This document shows positions 9,493 through 62,827 of a stretch of DNA of 64,000 nucleotides, one piece after another; positions within the stretch are counted from its first letter, which is position 1; each line of letters begins with the position of its first letter. The stretch covers positions 124,001-188,000 of the forward strand of contig PEBW01000001.1 in NCBI GenBank assembly GCA_003050565.1, read 5' to 3'. This DNA comes from Brockia lithotrophica (GTDB lineage: Bacteria; Bacillota; Bacilli; Thermicanales; DSM-22653). The notes beneath the pieces were generated by a model. The model saw only the letters and a list, made by a program, of their open reading frames with translations, was not told the origin of the DNA and ran no database searches. The position numbers were made by a program, and so were the translations under genes.

Positions 9493-10197
9493 TCAACCAC
9501 CCAGGTACGCCGCCCGCACCTCCTCGCTCGCCCGCAGCCGATCGGCGGTGTCCGCGAGCACGATGCGCCCCGTCTCGAGCACGTAGCCGCGGTGGGCGAC
9601 GGAAAGGGCCATGTGCGCATTTTGCTCGACGAGGAGGAGGGTGGTGCCCTGTTCGTTGATTTCTTTTAGTGTAGCAAAAATCTGCCGTACGAGCAGAGGG
9701 GCGAGGCCCAGAGAGGGTTCGTCCAAGAGAAGCAGCCGGGGACGCGCCATGAGCGCGCGCGCGATGGCGAGCATCTGCTGCTCGCCCCCGGAAAGGGTCC
9801 CCGCCTTTTGCTGCAGGCGCTCCTTGAGGCGCGGAAAGAGGGCGAAGACGCGCTCGAGGCTTTCCGCAACCTCCTTCGGATCGCGGCGCAGGTAGGCGCC
9901 TAGGGCGAGGTTTTCGCGCACGGTCATGTTGGCAAAAATCCTGCGACCTTCGGGAACGTGGGAAATCCCCAGGCGCACGATCTCTTCGGCCTTGAGGCGC
10001 GTGAGCGGACGCCCTTCAAAGGTGATGCTCCCCTCGCGCACCGGCACGAGGCCGGAAATCGCCCGGAGCAGGGTCGTCTTGCCCGCTCCGTTTGCCCCGA
10101 TGAGGGTGACGATCTCCCCGGCCTCAACCGCGAGGGAAATCCCCTTCAAGGCGTGGATACGCCCGTAGTAGACGTGGACGTTTTCGATCTTGAGCAT
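9493..10197 (-). CDS. livF: Branched-chain amino acid ABC transporter, ATPase LivF
   Basis: 234-residue ABC ATPase of the short LivF type. Walker A is GANGAGKTTL, the signature is LSGGEQQMLAIARALM, Walker B is LLLLDEPSLGLAPL, and the H-loop region is LLVEQN, typical of LivF. It hydrolyses ATP on the cytoplasmic side to power import of Leu/Ile/Val or related amino acids. The ATG overlaps the livG stop codon by one base (TGATG). It is the last gene of livH-livM-livG-livF. The in-frame N-terminal extension of 145 codons covers livG out of frame and is a shadow. Confidence 0.93.
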   Translation of the reverse strand: MLKIENVHVYYGRIHALKGISLAVEAGEIVTLIGANGAGKTTLLRAISGLVPVREGSITFEGRPLTRLKAEEIVRLGISHVPEGRRIFANMTVRENLALGAYLRRDPKEVAESLERVFALFPRLKERLQQKAGTLSGGEQQMLAIARALMARPRLLLLDEPSLGLAPLLVRQIFATLKEINEQGTTLLLVEQNAHMALSVAHRGYVLETGRIVLADTADRLRASEEVRAAYLGG

Positions 10198-11003
10198 CAC
10201 GACACCTCTTCCCCGAGGTAAGCTTCGATGACGCGCCGGTTCTTCCGGATTTCCTCGGGGCGCCCTTCGGCGATGAGCACCCCGTGGTCGAGGACGTAGA
10301 TGCGCTCCGAGATCCCCATCACGACGCTCATGTCGTGCTCGATGAGGAGGACCGTGAGCGAAAAGCGCTCGCGAATCTCGCGGATGAGCCGCATGAGGTC
10401 CTGACTTTCCTGGGGATTCATCCCCGCCGCCGGTTCGTCCAAGAGGAGGAGCTTGGGCCGGAGGGCGAGGGCGCGGGCGATTTCGAGGCGCCTCTGCAGG
10501 CCGTAGGGGAGATTGCGCGCCTTTTCGTCCCGGTAGGCGGAAAGGCCCATGAGTTCCAAAAGCTCTTCGGAAACGCGGGACATCTCCGCTTCCTCGCGGT
10601 AGAACCGGGGCAAACGGAGCATCGCCTCCCACGTGCGGTAGCGGGAGTGCACCGCCGCGGCGATGCGCACGTTGTCAAAAACGGAGAGGTTGCCGAAGAG
10701 ACGGATGTTCTGAAAGGTGCGGGCAATCCCGCGCCGCGCGAGGACGTGCGGGGGAAGCCCGTTGATCCGCTGGCCCTCAAAGAGGATCTCCCCCTCCGTA
10801 GGGGCGTAGACCCCGGTGAGGAGGTTGAAGACCGTCGTCTTGCCTGCGCCGTTGGGCCCGATGAGCCCCACGAGCTCTCCCTGTTTCAGGTAGAGGTCGA
10901 GGTTGTCCACGGCCTTAAGCCCGCCAAAGCGGATCCCCACACCCTTGAGGCGGAGGATTTCCCGTTCTCCCGCGGAGGAAGCCGCGAGCGCTTGCTCCTT
11001 CAC
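10197..11003 (-). CDS. livG: Branched-chain amino acid ABC transporter, ATPase LivG
   Basis: 268-residue ABC ATPase. It has FGGLKAVDNLDL, Walker A GPNGAGKTTVFNLLTG, GIARTFQNIRLFGNLSVFDNV (the LivG-specific Q-loop region), and a signature degenerated to LPYGLQRRLEIARALA, which is normal for LivG. Walker B is LLLLDEPAAGMNP and the H-loop is LIEHDM. The GTG start overlaps the livM stop codon by four bases (GTGA) and has AAGGAGGCGG upstream. It forms the ATPase heterodimer with LivF. Confidence 0.93.
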   Translation of the reverse strand: MKEQALAASSAGEREILRLKGVGIRFGGLKAVDNLDLYLKQGELVGLIGPNGAGKTTVFNLLTGVYAPTEGEILFEGQRINGLPPHVLARRGIARTFQNIRLFGNLSVFDNVRIAAAVHSRYRTWEAMLRLPRFYREEAEMSRVSEELLELMGLSAYRDEKARNLPYGLQRRLEIARALALRPKLLLLDEPAAGMNPQESQDLMRLIREIRERFSLTVLLIEHDMSVVMGISERIYVLDHGVLIAEGRPEEIRKNRRVIEAYLGEEVS

Positions 11004-37342: not shown

Positions 37343-37382
37343 GGAGGTGAAGGTCCGACCGCGAACGGTCGGACGTGCCATG
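37343..37382 (+). promoter_or_regulatory. hemQ leader: ribosome binding site and start codon separated by a perfect hairpin
   Basis: GGAGG at 37343-37347 is 32 bases from the hemQ ATG (37380). Between them GTCCGACCG (37353-37361) and CGGTCGGAC (37366-37374) form a perfect nine-base-pair stem with loop CGAA. With the stem folded, the effective spacing is about 10 bases. No other ribosome binding site precedes the ATG. Confidence 0.6.
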
Positions 37383-38114
37383 CGTTACACACCCAAAACG
37401 TACGAAGGGTACCACATGCTCCACGACTTCCGCCGCGTCGACTTCTCCTTCTGGCGCACACTGGTCGAAGACGAACAAAGGGCGCGACTCGAAGCCCTCC
37501 GCGAGCTTCTGGCGGGATGGGCCGAACTCGAAACCCGAGGAGAAGGGCATTCCCGGGTGTACGCCGTCCTCGGCCACAAGGCCGACCTCCTCTTCCTCCA
37601 CTTCCGAAAGTCGTTCGACGCCCTCCTCGACGCCCAATTCGCCCTGAACCGCATCCCCGCAGGGGACCTCTTCCCCCCGGCGTACGGCTACTACTCCGTC
37701 GTCGAACTCGGAAGCCACACGGGCGACCCTTCCTCCGACCCCAAACTCATGGCCGAGCTCTACCCCACGCCTCCCAAGGACGGGTACGTCGTCTTTTACC
37801 CCATGAGCAAGAAGCGGAGCGAGGACGAGAACTGGTACTGGATGCCGCAGGAAGAGCGGGCGCGGATGATGCGCTCCCACGGCGAGATCGGCCGCAAGTA
37901 CGCGGGTACGATTCTCCAGGTCGTCGGCGGCTCCCAAGGTCTCGACGACTGGGAGTGGAGCGTGACGCTTTTCGCCGACGACCCGATCGCCTTCAAAAAG
38001 ATCGTCTACGAGATGCGCTTCGACGAGGCGAGTGCCCGCTACGGCCTCTTTGGTCCCTTCTTCGTCGGCCGCGCGCTGGATGAGACTAATTTAAAAAATA
38101 TTTTTGGTATTTAA
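37380..38114 (+). CDS. hemQ: Coproheme decarboxylase (HemQ/ChdC), with replaced C-terminus
   Basis: Predicted 244 residues of the chlorite-dismutase fold. YPMSKKRSEDENWYWMPQEERARMMRSHGEIGRKYAG contains the proximal His (SHG), and DDWEWSVTLFADDP and MRFDEASARYGLFGPFFVGR are classic HemQ. It converts coproheme III to haem b in Bacillota. The final eleven residues (DETNLKNIFGI) are encoded by AT-rich DNA, starting at about 38085, that continues into the island; the normal C-terminus has apparently been replaced. A terminator follows at 38139. Confidence 0.92.
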   Translation: MRYTPKTYEGYHMLHDFRRVDFSFWRTLVEDEQRARLEALRELLAGWAELETRGEGHSRVYAVLGHKADLLFLHFRKSFDALLDAQFALNRIPAGDLFPPAYGYYSVVELGSHTGDPSSDPKLMAELYPTPPKDGYVVFYPMSKKRSEDENWYWMPQEERARMMRSHGEIGRKYAGTILQVVGGSQGLDDWEWSVTLFADDPIAFKKIVYEMRFDEASARYGLFGPFFVGRALDETNLKNIFGI

Positions 38115-38138
38115 TTTAAAAACAAATTTGTAAATTTT

Positions 38139-38162
38139 AAGCGGGAAAAAGCCCGCTTTTTT
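38139..38162 (+). terminator. Terminator of hemQ
   Basis: AAGCGGG (38139-38145) pairs with CCCGCTT (38152-38158), followed by TTTTTTA and more T. Confidence 0.85.
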
Positions 38163-38189
38163 ATTTTTTAATTTTATAAAATATTACTT

Positions 38190-38990
38190 GGCGGAACACC
38201 GGAATTTCGGCGTTCCTTGTTTTTCGTCAAAGCCGACCTCGGTCATGATCCTCGTTCGCGGACACATACAGAACATGCAACTTTTGTTGTTATACACAAC
38301 ATTTTGTTTGTCGATCAAAAAGTCGTATTGTCTCTCAGTCGTGCCAAATAGTCCGGATGTGGATCATCTGTCGGATGCGGTGTTCGTCCCACAGGCCCAT
38401 GATAATTTTTAAGTCTTCATAGATTTTGTCCGCAAAAAAATTGAATCGCGTAATAACTTATAAGTTTTTTGTTGCAAATTAATCAAAATAGTATCATCTG
38501 ATGTAACATTAACTTTTTAAACGAGTGTTACGATATATGCGACCTGTAGTTCATGCGTGATGTTGACGATGAGACGCAGCTTGTATCCAAACACCGTAGT
38601 TTTGTCACGTATCCCTCGCTTTCGTGCACCGTCTTAGGACCATAAACCGCATCCCCGTCTCAACTCGCTACCCGTCGGGCACGGTTTTTTCGGCCGATGA
38701 CGCGCTAACGGTCGATTAGCTTTGCTGTGTCGGATGGCTTTGCTGTCTAGAGTCAGACGTTTCCCGTAGTCGGAAAGGTATGTGGCCACAGTCCGCTGAA
38801 GCCCGACAACGTAGGACTTCAGATCAGCCTAATGAGCATCAACCCATATCCAGTAGCAACTGAAGACCGCGGCACTTGGTATGCAATCACCGAAATCCAA
38901 AAGCCAGCGTAACTGTTCGTTTTGAATCGGGGTTCGTGTCGCAGAGATTCGACACACGGGCAACAAAATACGGTTTGGTATTTATTTTCT
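38190..38990 (-). pseudogene. Decayed DDE transposase (IS4/IS5-like)
   Basis: Conceptual minus-strand translation, joining frames, gives RTPIQNEQLRWLLDFGD then PSAAVFSCYW, YLSDYGKRLTLDSKAIRHS, DKTTVFGYKLRLIVNITHEL, ADKIYEDLKIIMGLWDEHR, and near the C-terminus RTIWHD and a piece like NAEIPVF. This order (RHDP..LR..GF; DSKAI; WFGYKLHLIVD; ADKGYDD; IDIRKMW) is that of DUF772/DDE transposases common in thermophilic Firmicutes. Several stops and frameshifts interrupt it, so it is inactive. It sits between the hemQ terminator and the bacteriocin genes. The remaining non-coding stretch to 39239 is plain AT-rich DNA. Confidence 0.65.
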
Positions 38991-39239
38991 TGCAAATTTA
39001 AAATTAATCCGAATACCAATGCACTGTAACAGTGAAAAAACTTAATTGACTTATACTCTTAAAAAAGTTTTTTATCTCCGATCTTAGACATATTACAGAA
39101 TATAGTCTAGTAATTGTAATATATATTAATTTATGCACGTAAACGATTAAAATAAAAATTTTTAAATCGTTTATTTGTTTTAACATACTTAACATAAAAT
39201 TATAAATTTTATTTTTATTTATATTTTTATAAAAATACT

Positions 39240-40424
39240 TTATAACAAAGAAATTATTGATATTATTACACTCATAATAATAATTATAAATAAAAACATA
39301 TAGTTCAGCAAGAACGATTTATAGTTTTGATTAATTAATTCAATTTTTCTGTAATACATAAATCCTGTTATAAAGGTTAAAAATATTATTGCTAAGTTGT
39401 TTATTACATAATTGTAACTAGGTTTGTTATCACTTGTGATATATGAAATTATTATTGTTCCGATCATTCCGACAAATATCAAAGAAATCATTATTAAGCT
39501 ATAAAAGTATATTGTACTCGCTTTAAATCTACCTAATTTATTTATTATCAAAGAAGACTGAAGTAATTCAGATCTTGATTTATCTATTTCGTTTTCTTCG
39601 CGGTTATTTCCAATAAATGTATGTAGTAACAGTATGTAAATTTCGTACACAAACGCAACAGACGGAATAACATAACCTTTTGTTAATAAAATACCTGTCC
39701 CTTTTTCTATATAAATTGAAATAAAATTGTCAGTCACTTTATCAAAAATGTACATTATAAGTGCAACTATTATCGATATAATAATAAATAAACTTCTATT
39801 TTTTGTAATATAATCTATAAATATTTTTGTTATAGATCTGGGTATTTTACTTGATTCAGAAGCAAGTAGTTTAAGAGAAATATTATTAGTATATTTATAT
39901 AACATAAGATAAACTAATATCACAATTATTTTAAAAATAAGCAAATAAATATAAAAGTTTAGCTTGTAATTAAAAATAAAACTTAGTTGGATTAAACAAA
40001 TAATCTTTAATATCATTTGTAAATATTTATTAAGTAAATAATTTAGAAAAAATATTATTGTTTCTAATATCATTATAAAGAAGTATGCATACTCTTTTGT
40101 TAAAATTAAGAAAAATGTTAATAAGATAAAGGATAAAGATAATTGTAATGAATATCCTTTTTTTACAGTATAATATAAGTGTCTTATTATATAAATAATA
40201 TGTACAAAAATGACGCTAGGTCTTTTATATTCATAAGTAAAATCAACTTTATTAATATTTGTTTCTAATATTATGTAATTTAATATAAAGTACCCAAGAA
40301 TTATATAATTTAAAGGAAATGAATTAATCTTAAAAAAAGAAATCACAATAAACGAAATTATTGATAATGTTAAAATCAGCATTTCTATATATGTAATTAA
40401 GCTTTTTTCGTATAGACGAATCAT
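39240..40424 (-). CDS. Multi-pass membrane protein of the bacteriocin locus (putative exporter/maturation component)
   Basis: 394 residues, extremely rich in Ile, Leu, Tyr and Lys, with about 10-12 predicted membrane helices. A hydrophilic stretch, GNNREENEIDKSRSELLQSSLIINKLGRFKAS (about residues 275-306), resembles the cytoplasmic coupling region of ABC-2-type permeases. No family is recognisable by eye. As the last gene after the bacteriocin precursor it occupies the place of the large membrane protein (CirB-like) found in circular bacteriocin clusters. Together with the ATPase at 41.8 kb it could form the exporter. It starts 33 bases after the 170-residue gene. Confidence 0.6.
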   Translation of the reverse strand: MIRLYEKSLITYIEMLILTLSIISFIVISFFKINSFPLNYIILGYFILNYIILETNINKVDFTYEYKRPSVIFVHIIYIIRHLYYTVKKGYSLQLSLSFILLTFFLILTKEYAYFFIMILETIIFFLNYLLNKYLQMILKIICLIQLSFIFNYKLNFYIYLLIFKIIVILVYLMLYKYTNNISLKLLASESSKIPRSITKIFIDYITKNRSLFIIISIIVALIMYIFDKVTDNFISIYIEKGTGILLTKGYVIPSVAFVYEIYILLLHTFIGNNREENEIDKSRSELLQSSLIINKLGRFKASTIYFYSLIMISLIFVGMIGTIIISYITSDNKPSYNYVINNLAIIFLTFITGFMYYRKIELINQNYKSFLLNYMFLFIIIIMSVIISIISLL

Positions 40425-40457
40425 TTTAATCTCCTCCTCTTATAAATATTTTTTAGT

Positions 40458-40970
40458 TTACATATGAAAAATCTTCGTGTGCTGTATAAAAGAATATATA
40501 ATATCCAAAATATAAATAACTGAAAAAACAATTACAGCTTTCCAATTTTTTATTTTATGATTAATAAATAACATCATAACTGTTATACCTATGATTTGTG
40601 GTATAATGTATAAACTATAATTGTATTTCCCAAAAACAAAGAAAAATATTATACTTAAAATAACTGTTAAAGATTTCGGCAAAAACACAAGATACATATA
40701 TATTACATTTTTAAACTCATCATCAAAAAACATTAATATTAAAAATCTAGATATTAAATATTGAATTATTGTCATAGCAATTATGAATATTGTTGATAAA
40801 ATCGTTAAAGTTTTATATAAGCTATACTCATTTTCAAAAAAATTTTTTAGATCTAACGAATTATTCGCGATTGAGTTTAATATAATAGGTAACATTAAAT
40901 AAATATAAATGTAAACTAAAATAGCGTAAATTAATATACTAATTATCGATAAAAAAAATTCTTTTTTCAT
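40458..40970 (-). CDS. Four- or five-helix membrane protein of the bacteriocin locus
   Basis: 170 residues with hydrophobic segments at about 7-30, 57-80, 89-112, 119-138 and 144-160. Size and position match the roughly 170-residue DUF95/SpoIIM-like proteins (CirC, As-48C) of circular bacteriocin operons, but I do not see the Gly/Asn pattern of DUF95, so the assignment is contextual. The gene lies about 200 bases downstream of the precursor, behind a hairpin that could reduce its expression. ATG preceded by AGGAGG (CCTCCT on the plus strand at 40980). Confidence 0.6.
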   Translation of the reverse strand: MKKEFFLSIISILIYAILVYIYIYLMLPIILNSIANNSLDLKNFFENEYSLYKTLTILSTIFIIAMTIIQYLISRFLILMFFDDEFKNVIYMYLVFLPKSLTVILSIIFFFVFGKYNYSLYIIPQIIGITVMMLFINHKIKNWKAVIVFSVIYILDIIYSFIQHTKIFHM

Positions 40971-41126
40971 ACAAATATACCTCCTATAAAATATTTAGTG
41001 TTGTAATCAAATATATAAACAATAATACATAACAAATTTTTTTATTTTACTTTTTTAATTATTAATTCCTCCGAGATCAATTTTTAATTAATAATTCAAA
41101 TCAACAATTGTTTAATTAAATTAAAT

Positions 41127-41152
41127 AGGATCATCTCTAAAAAGATGATCCT
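41127..41152 (-). terminator. Hairpin after the bacteriocin precursor gene
   Basis: AGGATCATCT (41127-41136) and AGATGATCCT (41143-41152) form a perfect ten-base-pair stem with a six-base loop, flanked by A/T-rich runs on both sides. It probably lets most transcripts stop after the precursor gene, giving excess precursor over export proteins. Confidence 0.7.
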
Positions 41153-41187
41153 AAAAATATTTTTGTTAATTTTTTTTATATTATTAA

Positions 41188-41472
41188 TTAAAACATAGCT
41201 GCTTCATATTGCCCGTATCTCTTCAAAATTCTAAGTGCGGCTGCAAGAATTCCTGCAGAAATCGAACCAACGCCAGTTATAGCACCAACAATGGCAATGA
41301 CAAGAGCCACGTTTTGATAAGCATCCAAAAGTTTTACTACAGTTAGTGCGCTGGCTGTAGAAATACCTAGAGCTTTCGCAATAAATGCTGGTTCACCAAC
41401 AGTAACCGCAAGTAACGTCACCACAAAAACCAGAGCGGTAAAATAAACACCACGTTTGACAAACACTCGCAT
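41188..41472 (-). CDS. Circular bacteriocin precursor (amylocyclicin/circularin-like)
   Basis: Predicted 94 residues from an ATG eight bases after GGAGG. A 30-residue leader with one hydrophobic helix (VYFTALVFVVTLLAVTVGEPAF) is followed by a core starting IAKALGISTASALTVVKLLD and ending LKRYGQYEAAMF. The core is 64 residues if it starts at that Ile, the same length as amylocyclicin (LASTLGISTAAAKK...KKYGKKYAAAW, from memory). It shares LGISTA, a central Gly-rich TGxGxIS turn and a basic C-terminal helix (KRYG). Circular bacteriocins are joined head to tail and permeabilise membranes. Here Phe replaces the usual C-terminal Trp/Tyr. The gene is clearly less AT-rich than its neighbours. ATPase and membrane genes flank it. 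Confidence 0.82.
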   Translation of the reverse strand: MRVFVKRGVYFTALVFVVTLLAVTVGEPAFIAKALGISTASALTVVKLLDAYQNVALVIAIVGAITGVGSISAGILAAALRILKRYGQYEAAMF

Positions 41473-41503
41473 AGCAAAAACCTCCTTAAAGTTTAAGATT
41501 TTT

Positions 41504-41528
41504 ATATGAAGCCAAAAATGCTTCATAT
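41504..41528 (-). promoter_or_regulatory. Perfect inverted repeat in the precursor gene leader
   Basis: ATATGAAGC (41504-41512) and GCTTCATAT (41520-41528) form a nine-base-pair stem with a seven-base loop, ending 32 bases upstream of the precursor ATG. It could be an operator or an mRNA-stabilising stem. I could not identify a convincing -35/-10 pair around it. Confidence 0.45.
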
Positions 41529-41640
41529 CTTGATGATGAGAATATTTTTGTCTAGGTGCTAACTTTTTCCAGTTATCCCATCATCTTCCAATGTTGCCTC
41601 CTAGCCCTACCTTACCATCCTCACCCCTCCCCTGTCGGGG

Positions 41641-41762
41641 AAATGTTTTGGGAGTTCGTTCGGGAGAATCCCCTTGTCGAACGTGTCCTCCTCGACTACG
41701 TCTAGGTCGACGATCGTCATCTGGCTCGCCCTGGCCAAGAACTCCACATAGCACATAATTGA
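41641..41762 (-). pseudogene. Displaced, decayed fragment of pilO
   Basis: From 41664 to 41762 the sequence aligns without gaps to 43858-43956 inside the intact pilO gene; I count about 14 differences in 99 bases (roughly 86% identity). AATCCCCTTGTCGAACGTGT is identical in both. Differences are mostly G/C to A/T in the island copy and create stop codons in the pilO frame. Orientation is the same. The copy lies in the 313-base gap between the ATPase and the precursor gene. Confidence 0.85.
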
Positions 41763-41785
41763 AAATTAATTAGTTATACTGTTAT

Positions 41786-42394
41786 TTAACTTTTCGTAAT
41801 TATTTTTTCTTTATCTATGTGTATTTCATTTGAAATATCAAAAAGAAGTTTATTTATCGTACTATGAGATACATAAATAATAACAGAGTTTTCAGACATG
41901 CTTACAAATCTATCAACTAGCATTTCTACGCTTCTAGAATCTAATGCAGACATTGATTCATCAATTAATACAATATCCCAATCCTTTACAAATACCAAAG
42001 ATAATCCTAGCTTAGCCTTCATTCCTGTAGATCCTTTTTCATAAGGTGTATCTATCTTTCCGTCGAAAAAATCTTCTATTGCCGCAATTTGTTTTGATGT
42101 TGGTTTTATTTTAAATACATTCCATAAAATCTCTAAGTTTTCTCTAAAAGTAAAAGGTCGGATTCCAACGGGATCTACTGTTAGATACAATATATTTTTT
42201 CCTTTTACGGTAATTTTTCCTGAATAGTTTTTGTCAAGACCGGCGATCATCCTAAGTAGAGTTGTTTTACCGGCACCGTTTCTTCCTATTAAATGATAAA
42301 TACCACTAGTAATAGATAAATTTACATTTCTGAAAACAACTAAGTCTCCGAATTTTTTCGTTACATTATCTAATTCAATGCCTACGGTTTTCAT
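41786..42394 (-). CDS. ABC transporter ATP-binding protein of the bacteriocin locus
   Basis: 202 residues, a short ABC ATPase. Walker A is GRNGAGKTTLLRMIAGL, the signature is the degenerate GSTGMKAKLGLSLVF (LSGGQ replaced by STGMK), Walker B is DIVLIDESMSALD, and the switch His is in VSHST. Degenerate signatures of this kind occur in bacteriocin self-protection and export ATPases. It is probably partnered by the downstream membrane proteins for export of, or immunity to, the circular peptide. It lies upstream of the precursor, in the same orientation. Confidence 0.85.
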   Translation of the reverse strand: MKTVGIELDNVTKKFGDLVVFRNVNLSITSGIYHLIGRNGAGKTTLLRMIAGLDKNYSGKITVKGKNILYLTVDPVGIRPFTFRENLEILWNVFKIKPTSKQIAAIEDFFDGKIDTPYEKGSTGMKAKLGLSLVFVKDWDIVLIDESMSALDSRSVEMLVDRFVSMSENSVIIYVSHSTINKLLFDISNEIHIDKEKIITKS

Positions 42395-42424
42395 ATAGAA
42401 TACCCCCGAATTAAATAAATTAAT

Positions 42425-42503
42425 GAAATACCTAGAACAACCGTAATAAATTCTAGTTAACTAACAGTAAATACAAGTAACCTCACCACAAAAACCAGGA
42501 AGG
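42425..42503 (-). pseudogene. Vestigial second copy of the bacteriocin leader region
   Basis: GAAATACCTAGA...GTAACCTCACCACAAAAACC in this segment aligns to 41362-41440 of the precursor gene over about 79 bases with roughly 16 to 20 differences. Read in the matching frame it gives LVFVVRLLVFTVS, a stop, then LEFITVVLGI, against LVFVVTLLAVTVGEPAFIAKALGI in the intact gene. Similarity ends sharply at both sides. It is a relic of a duplicated precursor gene just upstream of the ATPase gene. Confidence 0.75.
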
Positions 42504-42593
42504 GAGATATTAATTTCTTTTTGATAAATCTTAATTCAATTTAAAAGCAAGCATTATTATTAATAATAAAATTAAATTTTAAATTTTTAAATT

Positions 42594-42785
42594 TTAAATT
42601 AATCTTATTATTAATTTTATTGTTGCATACAAAGTTAAAAAAACGTTAATTAGCAATAATATTATAATTGCACTATCATTCCTATTATTTTTGTTCTTTT
42701 CTTTACTGAAAAGGTATCCTAACATTATCCATAAAATTATCGATATCACGGATAATAGAACATCAAAAGAGGACATCTTATCCAA
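42594..42785 (-). CDS. Small two-helix membrane protein (candidate immunity protein)
   Basis: 63 residues with two hydrophobic segments (VLLSVISIILWIMLGYLF and AIIILLLINVFLTLYATIKLII) joined by a charged loop rich in Lys, Asn and Arg. Circular bacteriocin loci usually encode a small, basic, hydrophobic immunity protein of about 50-60 residues, and this is the only such gene here. AGAAGG lies about ten bases before the ATG. It is the first gene of the island after ssrA. The function is inferred from size, charge and position. Confidence 0.5.
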   Translation of the reverse strand: MDKMSSFDVLLSVISIILWIMLGYLFSKEKNKNNRNDSAIIILLLINVFLTLYATIKLIIRLI

Positions 42786-42795
42786 CCTTCTTACT

Positions 42796-42822
42796 TATTA
42801 TTCTTACTGGGTAAAAATAATA
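42796..42822 (-). repeat. AT-only inverted repeat abutting the ssrA 3' end
   Basis: TATTATTCTTAC (42796-42807) and GTAAAAATAATA (42811-42822) form a 12-base-pair stem (one G-U pair in RNA) with a three-base loop. Its outer end touches the CCA of ssrA. It may act as a weak ssrA terminator or mark the island end. Confidence 0.5.
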
Positions 42823-43174
42823 TGGTGGAGGCGGGGGGACTCGAACCCCCGTCCGAAAGCCTCACCACGGCCGCTTCTCCGAGCGCAGTCCGGGTTTTCG
42901 TCTCGCGCTCGGGTCTCCCCCGGACGGGATCCCCAAACGCCAGCCCTCCTTTGTGTCGCCCCTCCCCGGAGGGCGAAGAAAGAGGCCAAGCCCGCTCAGA
43001 TGTCCCCTATGCCGCCCTGCGGGCGCGGGCGACACAGAGGCTGACCGCGCTAATTAGGCAGCCAGGGCAAGTTCGCGTTCGTTCGCACTTCTTGAGTTTT
43101 GCGTTTTTGCGAGGACGCAACCCCTCGGCTCGCTACGACCGCTTCGAGACCCCCGTCGAAACCAAGGCGCCCCC
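42823..43174 (-). ncRNA. ssrA: Transfer-messenger RNA (tmRNA)
   Basis: 352 bases on the minus strand. The 5' end GGGGGCG pairs with the 3' CGCCTCC before ACCA. GGTTTCGACGGGGG near the 5' end and GGGGGTTCGAGTCCCCC at the 3' T-arm are hallmarks. The internal reading frame from GCA encodes the tag AKTQNSRSANERELALAA followed by TAA, ending in the ALAA recognised by ClpXP. tmRNA with SmpB frees stalled ribosomes. A promoter lies at 43191-43220. No GC-rich terminator follows; island DNA begins directly after CCA. Confidence 0.96.
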
Positions 43175-43618: not shown

Positions 43619-44208
43619 TGCCCCTGCCCCCCCACGTTGAGATCCCAAATCCAGGTCGCCCACTCGTACCGCACGCGGAGCGGAGTATCCCCGACAAACC
43701 AAGGAGCGTGCGTGTTTTCCCCGTCCAGGCGAAGGGGTGTGGCGAGGGGCGGGGCGGCCGAAAGGGCGGCAAAAAATGCGGAGAGCGACGCGTACGTCCC
43801 TTCGAAGGTCCCCTGCCAGCGCAAGCGCTTGAGGGGAATGTTCTGGAGCTTTTCCGGCAGAATCCCCTTGTCGAACGTGTCCTCTTCGACGACGCCGAGG
43901 TCGACGATCGTCACCTGGCTTGCCTTGGCCAAGAGCTCCACCTCGCGCATGATCGACCAGCGGTCACTCCGCGACGGCAGATACGCCGCAACCTGGGGAT
44001 CGGCCTGGCTCGGCTTTTCCTTTTCCGCCTGGCGGATCTTGCTCGCGTACACGTCCACCTCTCGCTTCACCCGGTCGCGCTCCTCCGCCGCGTTGCGGAC
44101 TTCACGCAAACCGCCGAGGAAGAGGAAGCCAAACACGCCCACCGCGAGCAGGAGAAAGGCGAGGGCCGCGGCGCCGACCTTGCGGAACACGCGGGCGCTC
44201 GAGGTCAT
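43615..44208 (-). CDS. pilO: Type IV pilus alignment protein, PilO-like
   Basis: 197 residues. One N-terminal membrane helix (GAAALAFLLLAVGVFGFLFLG), a coiled-coil stretch with Glu/Arg repeats (about 35-65) and a ferredoxin-like C-terminal domain with LSAFFAALSAAPPLATPLRL are the PilO layout. PilO dimerises with PilN and links the cytoplasmic PilM ring to the pilus. ATGA overlaps couple it to pilN before and the small membrane gene after. A decayed copy of its middle part lies in the AT-rich island. Confidence 0.75.
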   Translation of the reverse strand: MTSSARVFRKVGAAALAFLLLAVGVFGFLFLGGLREVRNAAEERDRVKREVDVYASKIRQAEKEKPSQADPQVAAYLPSRSDRWSIMREVELLAKASQVTIVDLGVVEEDTFDKGILPEKLQNIPLKRLRWQGTFEGTYASLSAFFAALSAAPPLATPLRLDGENTHAPWFVGDTPLRVRYEWATWIWDLNVGGQGQ

Positions 44209-60976: not shown

Positions 60977-61384
60977 CTCGGGTACCCCCTTTTCGCAGCG
61001 GGAAGCCGCATCGCACGCCTTCCCGAGAAGCCGGCGTACGTCGCGCGCCGCACGAGCTTCGCGCGCCCGAATTCCGCCTCCCAACGGAGACCCGGTACAA
61101 ATCTCGCGGGTCGGCGTGCGGCACACACGAATCATAGCACATCTTCTCCCCGCACACCGCAACGGAATGGGCGCCGGGAAAACGCCGGGAACCCACCGAA
61201 AAAAACTTTGCCCGTAGAAACCCTCCGCTTTGCGCCCAAAGCGCGTCCTAGGAGTGTGGACTTCCGCCGGATCCTACGGTAGGATATTCATCGGCGCATA
61301 TGATGCGGGAACGCCTTCTCCTCACCTCCCTTCTCCGAAGAAATCCCACCGCACCGGTGGATACGTCGCGAAGGAGGTACCCCC
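60977..61384. other. Divergent intergenic region gatC / O-antigen ligase
   Basis: No gene is supported. A possible gatC -10 (TATGAT) lies at 61131-61136 on the minus strand. On the plus strand a 15-base palindrome, ATCCTAC-G-GTAGGAT, at 61271-61285 is followed by TATGAT at 61299-61304, so a regulator could bind over the -35 position of the ligase gene. Confidence 0.35.
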
Positions 61385-62827
61385 GTGCTCTCCGGCGAAA
61401 TCCCCTTGTCCCAAGACCGCGCGTTCGAGCCGAAAAAAGTCGGCGAGGTTTCCCATTACGTAGTTTTGACCATGTTTCTTATCTCTACAAGCGTGTTTTT
61501 TATTTCTTTTTTCACAGAACTGAATATGCTGCCCGAAGTTGTACATGATTTACTCATGGTCGCCGCCTTTGCTTTACAACTATTTTTTCCGATATCATTT
61601 ATTTATATAACTTTTACACGTGCAAAAATTTATTTAAATGAGAGGAGCTCTCCTTACCTTTTCTTGCTATTTTTAATGTACATATTTTTTTTGTTTTCCC
61701 TGTTTTCTTTTTTGTGGAGCGATTATCCGACTTTCGTAATAAAAAAATCGTTAACCATTTTTTTACCAGTGATATTACTATCAATAGTTTTGTTATTTGA
61801 TGAAGATCCGATAAAAACTTTTAACAAAGTATCGATAATATTCATTGCTTTTTCCGTTTTTTCTTCGTTGCACGGAGAAATAGTGTTACTTATGGGAAAA
61901 ATTGACCAAAATCCCCTTGCTCCGAATGTGTATGAGCAGTATATATCCTTAGGGGTGCTAAAGATACCGCAAATTGTTTACGGGACGCCGCCGTTTCTTA
62001 GGATATCTTCTTTTTTGGGGAATCCGAACAGGCTAGCTGTATTGAACTCGGTGGGGATTGTTCTTACGCTTTATTTAACTAGAATTAACTACATAAAAAA
62101 GTTCACCGGCGTTTTTCTTGTCCTCGTTCAATCCATTTCTTTGCTCCTTACCTATTCGAGAGACGGAGTCTTATTTGCCGCTCTCATGCTACTCGCCTAC
62201 TCCATATGGTTCGCGAAAAGGGGGACCCTTCGCATCGCGGGACTCCTCCTCGGAGGCGTGCTCCTTGCTCTTTCCCTCTTGGGAATCTACCTCGTGTACC
62301 AGAGCACCAACCCCGTCCCCGCCCAAGGCGACGGCCAGTCCTTCCTCGAAAAACGGCTTTCTCTCGGACTGAACGGCAGGGATCGAATTTGGAAGCCTGT
62401 CCTCGAGCAAATTGCCGAGACGCCCCTCTTCGGCATAGGATTCGGCACCGCGACGGAAGCGATCTTGCGGCCGCGGGGGATCGAACACACCGTCCACAGC
62501 TCGCACCTTCAGATCCTCGCGGAACTCGGAATTGCGGGGTACGCCCTGTTCCTCGTAACGTTCTTCACCTTTGGAGCGTTTGCGCTTCGCGCGATCCGAA
62601 AGGCGCCAGGTCCCGCCGTCCAACACGTCGGCGCCGTCACGTTTGCCCTGGTCTTCGGCTTCTTCGTCCACGATTTCCTGGAAAGCGTGATCGTCCTCTG
62701 GGGACCGTTTACCCTCCTTACGGGGTACGCGATGTTCACCCTCCTCCATCCGCAGGTGATCGGAGAAGGAGTCCGAGAAGGCAAAACGCGCGGAATTCCC
62801 GTATCGGGGGATTCCGTGTATACTTGA
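61385..62827 (+). CDS. O-antigen ligase / polymerase family membrane protein (WaaL-like)
   Basis: 480 residues with about 11 membrane helices. LLTYSRDGVLFAALMLLAYS, a large extracytoplasmic loop with RDRIWKPVLEQIAETPLFGIGFGTA and the conserved His region VHSSHLQILAELGIAGYALFLVTFF are typical of the Wzy_C/WaaL family, which transfers lipid-linked polysaccharide to an acceptor or to glycoprotein. The GTG start has GAAGGAGGT upstream. Codons for residues about 20-250 are AT-rich while the rest matches the host, so the gene looks like a recombinant. Confidence 0.82.
   Translation: MLSGEIPLSQDRAFEPKKVGEVSHYVVLTMFLISTSVFFISFFTELNMLPEVVHDLLMVAAFALQLFFPISFIYITFTRAKIYLNERSSPYLFLLFLMYIFFLFSLFSFLWSDYPTFVIKKSLTIFLPVILLSIVLLFDEDPIKTFNKVSIIFIAFSVFSSLHGEIVLLMGKIDQNPLAPNVYEQYISLGVLKIPQIVYGTPPFLRISSFLGNPNRLAVLNSVGIVLTLYLTRINYIKKFTGVFLVLVQSISLLLTYSRDGVLFAALMLLAYSIWFAKRGTLRIAGLLLGGVLLALSLLGIYLVYQSTNPVPAQGDGQSFLEKRLSLGLNGRDRIWKPVLEQIAETPLFGIGFGTATEAILRPRGIEHTVHSSHLQILAELGIAGYALFLVTFFTFGAFALRAIRKAPGPAVQHVGAVTFALVFGFFVHDFLESVIVLWGPFTLLTGYAMFTLLHPQVIGEGVREGKTRGIPVSGDSVYT

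Follow-up and report, generated by a model that had tools for sequence, protein, structure and literature searches.

We analyzed a stretch of 64,000 nucleotides from the genome of Brockia lithotrophica (assembly GCA_003050565.1, contig PEBW01000001.1, positions 124,001 to 188,000; hereafter the window), in which an AT-rich island carries a putative circular bacteriocin cluster without a gene for a DUF95 (SpoIIM) protein. Five open reading frames (ORFs) had been reported on one strand of the island by a first-pass annotation made from the sequence letters, and we found all of them where they had been placed, on the minus strand. We call them A (the bacteriocin precursor), B (a protein of 394 amino acids), D (an ABC ATPase), E (a protein of 170 amino acids) and F (a small cationic protein), and use C for the DUF95 gene of related clusters and A' for a stump of a second precursor gene. 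Their order in the window is F-A'-D-A-E-B, against F-A-B-C-D-E in relatives. The description of the locus as an AT-rich island in high-GC surroundings proved accurate: the GC content is 28% in the island and 64% in the adjoining host gene, which we presume to be hemQ. The precursor gene (41191-41472) reaches 43%, although its neighbours B, E, and F are at only 19-23%. The features of the locus are given in Table 1.

Table 1. Features of the island and its borders, in window coordinates.
Feature	Position	Strand	Evidence and remarks
hemQ-like host flank gene	37347..38114	+	92% protein identity to G398, residues 1-252 of 255
AT-rich island	38087..42818		4732 bp between the hemQ-like gene and ssrA; blastn vs G398 (L048)
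Gene B, 394-aa multi-helix membrane protein	39240..40424	-	BLASTP 2e-38, 28% over 391 columns, to the P. flexa gene after the precursor; AGAGGAGG upstream of ATG
Gene E, 170-aa multi-helix membrane protein	40458..40970	-	Homologue of the P. flexa gene after the ABC gene; AGGAGG upstream
Terminator-like hairpin just 3' of the precursor gene	41126..41153	-	12-pair stem, T-containing tail; consensus match only
Core peptide, 64 residues (precursor 31-94)	41191..41382	-	Profile match 33-94 and alignment to relatives; predicted cleavage site
Precursor leader, 30 residues, hydrophobic	41383..41472	-	Translation; AAGGAGG upstream
Scar, partial copy of pilO-like host gene	41638..41762		84% over 124 nt
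Gene D, 202-aa ABC ATPase	41786..42394	-	PF00005 3.3e-15; 56% identity to its P. flexa counterpart
A', stump of second precursor gene (leader end and core start), directly upstream of D	42425..42498	-	82% over 74 nt to intact A
Gene F, two-helix cationic protein, candidate immunity	42594..42776	-	60 aa (63 from TTG); pI 9.7
ssrA (tmRNA) at island edge	42823..43174	-	ARAGORN; Rfam RF00023 180.9 bits

The longest ORF at the precursor gene begins at 41526 (112 amino acids), and the ATG at 41472, behind the AAGGAGG motif, gives the 94-residue precursor with a 64-residue core (residues 31-94) that had been proposed. The precursor matches the profiles PF09221 (46.7 bits, E 3.6e-12, cut-off 23.6) and TIGR03651 (37.7 bits, E 1.9e-9, cut-off 30.7), the latter score being the lowest of its group, where three relatives have 46.4-65.8 bits. 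By sequence, the closest solved structure is that of enterocin NKR-5-3B (2mp8, phmmer E 5.1e-7). The two profiles and this match uphold the view of the peptide as a divergent circular bacteriocin precursor of the amylocyclicin kind, and its sequence places it almost certainly in that known family. With a predicted cleavage site, the core of 64 and the leader of 30 residues fall in the range of circular bacteriocins, for which the accessible part of a review gives about 58-70 and 2-48 residues, respectively (PMC6131525). The same text describes group i peptides as cationic with a pI above 9 (PMC6131525), and the core, with a computed pI of ~9.7, agrees with this; its circular mass would be ~6474 Da (linear core, 6492 Da), with five K/R versus two D/E and a GRAVY of 1.12. 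The terminal Phe of the core, which had been listed among the oddities of the locus, is there but is not unusual, since the four cores compared (window, P. flexa, G779, and G716) all end in Phe. A single-sequence AlphaFold2 model of the precursor is helical and of low confidence (mean pLDDT 60, pTM 0.40). Foldseek searches with it returned nothing at E <= 0.001; the 17 matches with E between 4 and 10 are for the most part DNA-binding regulators. A model of E was likewise of low confidence. Among plasmids, the precursor matched 110 records, 108 of them from Enterococcus, and scans of viral contigs with the precursor and with B returned no relative.

Clusters with the same accessory genes were found in a plasmid of Priestia flexa (NZ_CP120594.1) and in two further Bacilli genomes (G779 and G716). 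In the P. flexa plasmid, a precursor homologue with circular bacteriocin annotation is followed, in this order, by genes for a 363-residue product, a SpoIIM protein, an ABC ATPase, and a 170-residue product; an unannotated ORF of 62 amino acids lies ahead of the precursor. The plasmid carries the cluster twice (L012), ~9955 bases apart, and may be a plasmid dimer. The order is F-A-shortened A-B-C-D-E in G779, and A-A-B-C-D-E, with the frame of B broken, in G716. The shortened precursor of G779 (L105:5535-5756) has lost the middle of its core, with the leader and the core end retained. Identity to these relatives is 55-57% for D, 30-31% for B, and 25-26% for E, the latter matching its P. flexa homologue by BLASTP at 1e-14 (33% over 97 columns) and by tblastn at 1.1e-13. 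The accessory proteins had been described as being of no clear family, and indeed B, E, and F have no clear Pfam or NCBIfam name; they do, however, have homologues, B and E in all three of these clusters and F in those of P. flexa and G779. A search of 398 genomes from the class recovered B in three, its own included, and plasmid searches with B and with E found one record each, that of P. flexa. In comparisons of profiles, E matched neither DUF95 nor B nor what we presume to be Yip1-like proteins, and B matched neither DUF95 nor the B proteins of other clusters, the two-row profiles being weak. A search of 398 genomes of the phylum with E returned its own genome and two weak hits, of which tblastn kept one weakly (1.3e-4) and the other not at all; they were not used.

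The start of F is either a TTG, which gives 63 amino acids, or the ATG three codons later (42776), which has AGAAGG upstream. F is related to the small genes preceding the precursor in P. flexa (the 62-aa ORF) and G779 (63 amino acids); in each case, 0 of 2000 shuffles reached the score. It had no match to another small P. flexa gene, and a plasmid search with it gave none at E <= 1, although P. flexa has the unannotated F-like ORF. According to the accessible text of the review, circular bacteriocin clusters generally encode a small, cationic, and hydrophobic immunity protein (PMC6131525). F, related to the F of P. flexa and G779, is a candidate for this role, which its size, charge, and position would suit. 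By eye, clear ribosome-binding sites precede 4 of the 5 ORFs; D has only a weak GGGGG upstream of its ATG. A scan of contigs from other genomes with an ABC alignment found 49 loci (long matches 23-36% identical, short ones up to 52%), which by their titles look like general ABC transporters.

One distinguishing feature of the cluster is what it lacks. No recognisable DUF95 protein had been seen, and this stands: a DUF95 profile of 10 rows, which retrieved all 10 held-out proteins (with E 8.6e-10 or better), also when close relatives were held out, found nothing convincing in the frames of the island (best E 0.05). The precursor's own frame matched an 8-row profile with E 0.0096 (8.2 bits) and the 10-row profile with E 0.4, which we took as chance. 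When the P. flexa and G779 proteins were compared with the island by tblastn (E <= 0.05), no additional fragment of B, C, or D appeared, and the one extra match, of A inside B (E 0.04), is at chance level. With the limit relaxed to E <= 1 for C by itself, there were six matches (E 0.19 to 0.82), again at the level of chance. We also made a census of 19 precursor loci, namely those of the profile and B searches and that of P. flexa; the other 109 plasmid records of the precursor search were left out. There was no DUF95 match in the 21 kb of the window that were covered (best E 0.54), while 17 of the 18 other loci, some of them from closely related genomes and several in the training set of the profile, have a DUF95 frame. 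In the exception (L111), only 1.7 kb of contig remain on the downstream side of the precursor. The census includes one precursor below the Pfam cut-off (L115) and one degraded locus (L116), with at least 3.5 kb between the precursor and SpoIIM frames.

The missing gene is more than a detail, because the review, in its accessible part, states that all circular bacteriocin clusters have a SpoIIM/DUF95 gene (PMC6131525). A survey of 119 clusters, as far as its text was available, reports SpoIIM in almost every one (PMC7132975). The corresponding parts of two mining studies show that a SpoIIM gene was demanded (PMC8534725, PMC8659200), and in one of them a complete cluster comprises a precursor, a DUF95 protein, and an ATP-binding protein (PMC8534725). 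In the island, an ABC ATPase gene accompanies the precursor gene and the DUF95/SpoIIM gene is absent. Hence, the locus is a variant that falls outside the published three-gene rule, with a peptide that is itself of a known family.

The arrangement of the genes suggests how C may have been lost. The stump A' (score 83, where 200 shuffles reached 34 at most; repeat D1) adjoins D at the place where relatives have B and C. This points to a single deletion that would have begun inside a second copy of the precursor gene, ended immediately ahead of D, and removed B and C there, breaking the order F-A-B-C-D-E of relatives. The remainder of the order would need further changes; three tandem copies of the cluster followed by deletions could have produced F-A'-D-A-E-B. 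A scar lies between D and A. It copies part of a host gene beyond ssrA (43833-43956), which we take to be pilO, with an alignment score of 143, where none of 200 shuffles exceeded 30, and was also recovered by a search of the genome. Over 111 ungapped sites, the scar is identical at 93 to the pilO-like gene of its own genome and at 93 to that of G398, a genome of the same genus; 13 changes are private to it, 11 towards A/T and 1 towards G/C. Since it is equally close to both genes and its private changes are mostly to A/T, the scar looks like old, unconstrained DNA, and perhaps comes from a third, related species.

Comparison with G398 delimits the insertion. DNA homology ends at window position 38086 and restarts at 42819, the edge of ssrA, and between these edges G398 has 113 bp in place of the ~4.7-kb insertion. 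The last codons of the hemQ-like gene accordingly fall in island DNA. A profile search of the G398 genome gave no PF09221 match. The island has very probably been acquired horizontally and rearranged. Pfam and NCBIfam-type profiles revealed no integrase among the island ORFs and pieces searched, and a copy of the ssrA 3' end, the mark of integrase-mediated insertion, was not found at the far edge, even when 3 of 24 bases were allowed to differ. Six pieces of the segment 38184-39020, considered as a possible decayed transposase, have no convincing Pfam match (best E 0.094), so that this is not claimed; one piece had no plasmid match, and the segment has no second copy in the genome. Two side observations concern similar DNA elsewhere. 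A second tmRNA copy in the same genome (G000:C3:10663-11014, L049) is 98% identical to that of the window, with its 3' end changed to GGTAGAGG in place of TGGTGGAGG, and likewise adjoins AT-rich DNA (26% GC at 10000-10500). Another stretch of low GC in the window (46% at 61001-62000) overlaps the start of a 480-aa ORF (61385-62827), by appearance a multi-helix membrane protein.

The genome has two other circular bacteriocin clusters. Its PF09221 matches are three, in the window and on the contigs C10 (L013, G000:C10) and C11 (L014, G000:C11), of 3705 and 3561 bases. On these, a TIGR03651 precursor is followed by a membrane protein of 755 or 736 amino acids with SpoIIM at its C-terminus. They are the only contigs with SpoIIM (PF01944) in this genome, which is 97% complete. 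The same cluster type occurs in G400, of the same family, on a 3-kb contig with the fused gene split over two frames. The fusion itself is not new, since the available text of the survey reports, for the AS-48 subfamily, SpoIIM domains contained in a putative membrane protein (PMC7132975). C10 and C11 share a match of 125 bases close to their ends, which suggests a tandem array split by the assembler. In the ABC gene, a run of five T in C10 is six T long in C11, so that the C11 frame is broken close to the end of the contig.

How does a cluster without C persist? The five remaining genes stayed open, and we consider it most likely that the SpoIIM domains of the fused proteins of C10 and C11 provide the lacking function in trans. 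Gene A would give the precursor, from which the leader would be removed and the core joined head to tail; D, with B (and E), would serve maturation and export, and F immunity, as the relatives suggest. To the explanation as a whole, i.e., an acquired cluster of the amylocyclicin type, rearranged and now using SpoIIM in trans, we give a probability of about 0.5; that the locus still functions with SpoIIM from elsewhere in the genome has a chance slightly short of even. All five ORFs are open. In a simulation of decay with rates of our own choosing, all five stayed open in 76, 19, 0, and 0 of 500 runs at 1, 2, 5, and 10% change, respectively. This speaks for a working locus, since few neutral runs keep them and the scar in the same island has changed at 13 of 111 sites. 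Several points weigh on the other side. The SpoIIM domains of C10 and C11 belong with another precursor type and may not be compatible with this D and B; in the genome of the window, the C protein of P. flexa finds only C10, and weakly (1.3e-4, 28%). The divergence of B and E (25-31% identity to relatives) far exceeds that of D (55-57%), which also fits relaxed selection, and the order and C have been lost. The age of the scar need not equal that of the C-less cluster. Finally, as the contigs C10 and C11 are short, their place in the genome rests on the assembly and on the presence of the same type in G400.

Next in rank, and distinctly less probable than supply in trans, is that the cluster is decaying: bacteriocin export would have ceased with the loss of C, and the locus would persist either accidentally or through a remaining role of F, D, B, and E in immunity against the circular bacteriocins of neighbours. 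The missing C, the strong divergence of B and E, the scrambled order, and the precursor stump and host-gene scar inside the island are what such decay would leave, and the survey, in its accessible part, calls some incomplete clusters probably vestigial (PMC7132975). Against this stand the five open frames, four with clear ribosome-binding sites, the rarity of such an outcome in the simulated neutral runs, and the intact precursor, which immunity alone would not need.

Third, the bacteriocin might be independent of SpoIIM, with B and/or E having taken over the role of DUF95 in a locus that is complete as it is; we regard this as improbable. B is longer (394 amino acids) than the intact B proteins of P. 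flexa (363) and G779 (377), and its branch is long relative to that of D. The review, where accessible, mentions a leucocyclicin Q mutant without DUF95 that kept cyclic peptide inside the cell (PMC6131525), and loci without SpoIIM would have been discarded, because two mining studies, by their available text, required it (PMC8534725, PMC8659200). B and E nevertheless have counterparts in clusters that also carry C, and the comparison of either with the DUF95 profile came out empty, a weak test that also missed the match of B to the B of other circular clusters. Taken together, the chances that a C-less system of this kind works without a DUF95 of its own, be it by borrowing SpoIIM from another cluster of the same cell or by replacement through B or E, are evenly balanced.

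An assembly error behind the gene order and the absent C is very improbable: the assembly is a draft of 12 contigs, and the other two clusters are on short contigs resembling repeat breaks, but the island is inside a contig of 357,518 bases, both its flanks match the sister genome G398, and no DUF95 turned up in the assembly outside C10 and C11. Least credible of all is a linear membrane peptide with an uncleaved leader beside an ordinary ABC transporter. In its favour, cyclisation is a prediction from sequence and no solved structure matches the model of pLDDT 60; against it, two curated profiles score above their cut-offs, NKR-5-3B matches by sequence, and the P. flexa homologue, with the same accessory genes, bears a circular bacteriocin annotation.

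In the accessible text of the review, the role of DUF95/SpoIIM, in cyclisation or in export, is presented as unsettled (PMC6131525). A natural C-less cluster whose other genes are open, in a genome that also encodes two SpoIIM fusions of another type, lends itself to testing if SpoIIM can be exchanged between systems or dispensed with. A search rule that combines precursor, DUF95, and ATPase can miss loci, and if the system works without its own DUF95, mining rules requiring that gene would have hidden others like it. The accessory families B, E, and F, for which Pfam and NCBIfam offer no clear name, recur in a cluster type of Bacilli.

Circular bacteriocins from thermophiles are already known, to judge from paper titles, in Geobacillus and Aeribacillus, and one paper (PMC5100339) reportedly names a circular bacteriocin alongside Kyrpidia, a high-GC thermophile genus. 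Among the papers searched, none joins a circular bacteriocin with Priestia flexa. The nearest systems are those of P. flexa, G779, and G716, which share with the window homologues of A, B, D, and E and 64-residue cores ending in Phe. P. flexa and G779 also have a small F ahead of the precursor, and G779 (in shortened form) and G716 a second precursor copy. They differ from the window in having DUF95 between B and D, in the order A-B-C-D-E. The precursor of G314, which we take to be amylocyclicin-like, ends in Trp instead of Phe and is 35% identical to that of the window. Downstream of the G017 cluster, we noted a second precursor-like ORF that looks leaderless (L017:10463-10663). Amylocyclicin and enterocin NKR-5-3B, of group i, resemble the window in their cationic 64-residue core and long leader (lengths from the accessible part of PMC6131525), whereas clusters of the amylocyclicin type differ from it by having DUF95 in the cluster. 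The C10 and C11 clusters of the same genome, like the window, combine a circular bacteriocin precursor with an ABC ATPase; in contrast to it, they carry SpoIIM, fused to a membrane protein, on contigs of 47 and 52% GC, and their precursors are only 20-23% identical to that of the island.

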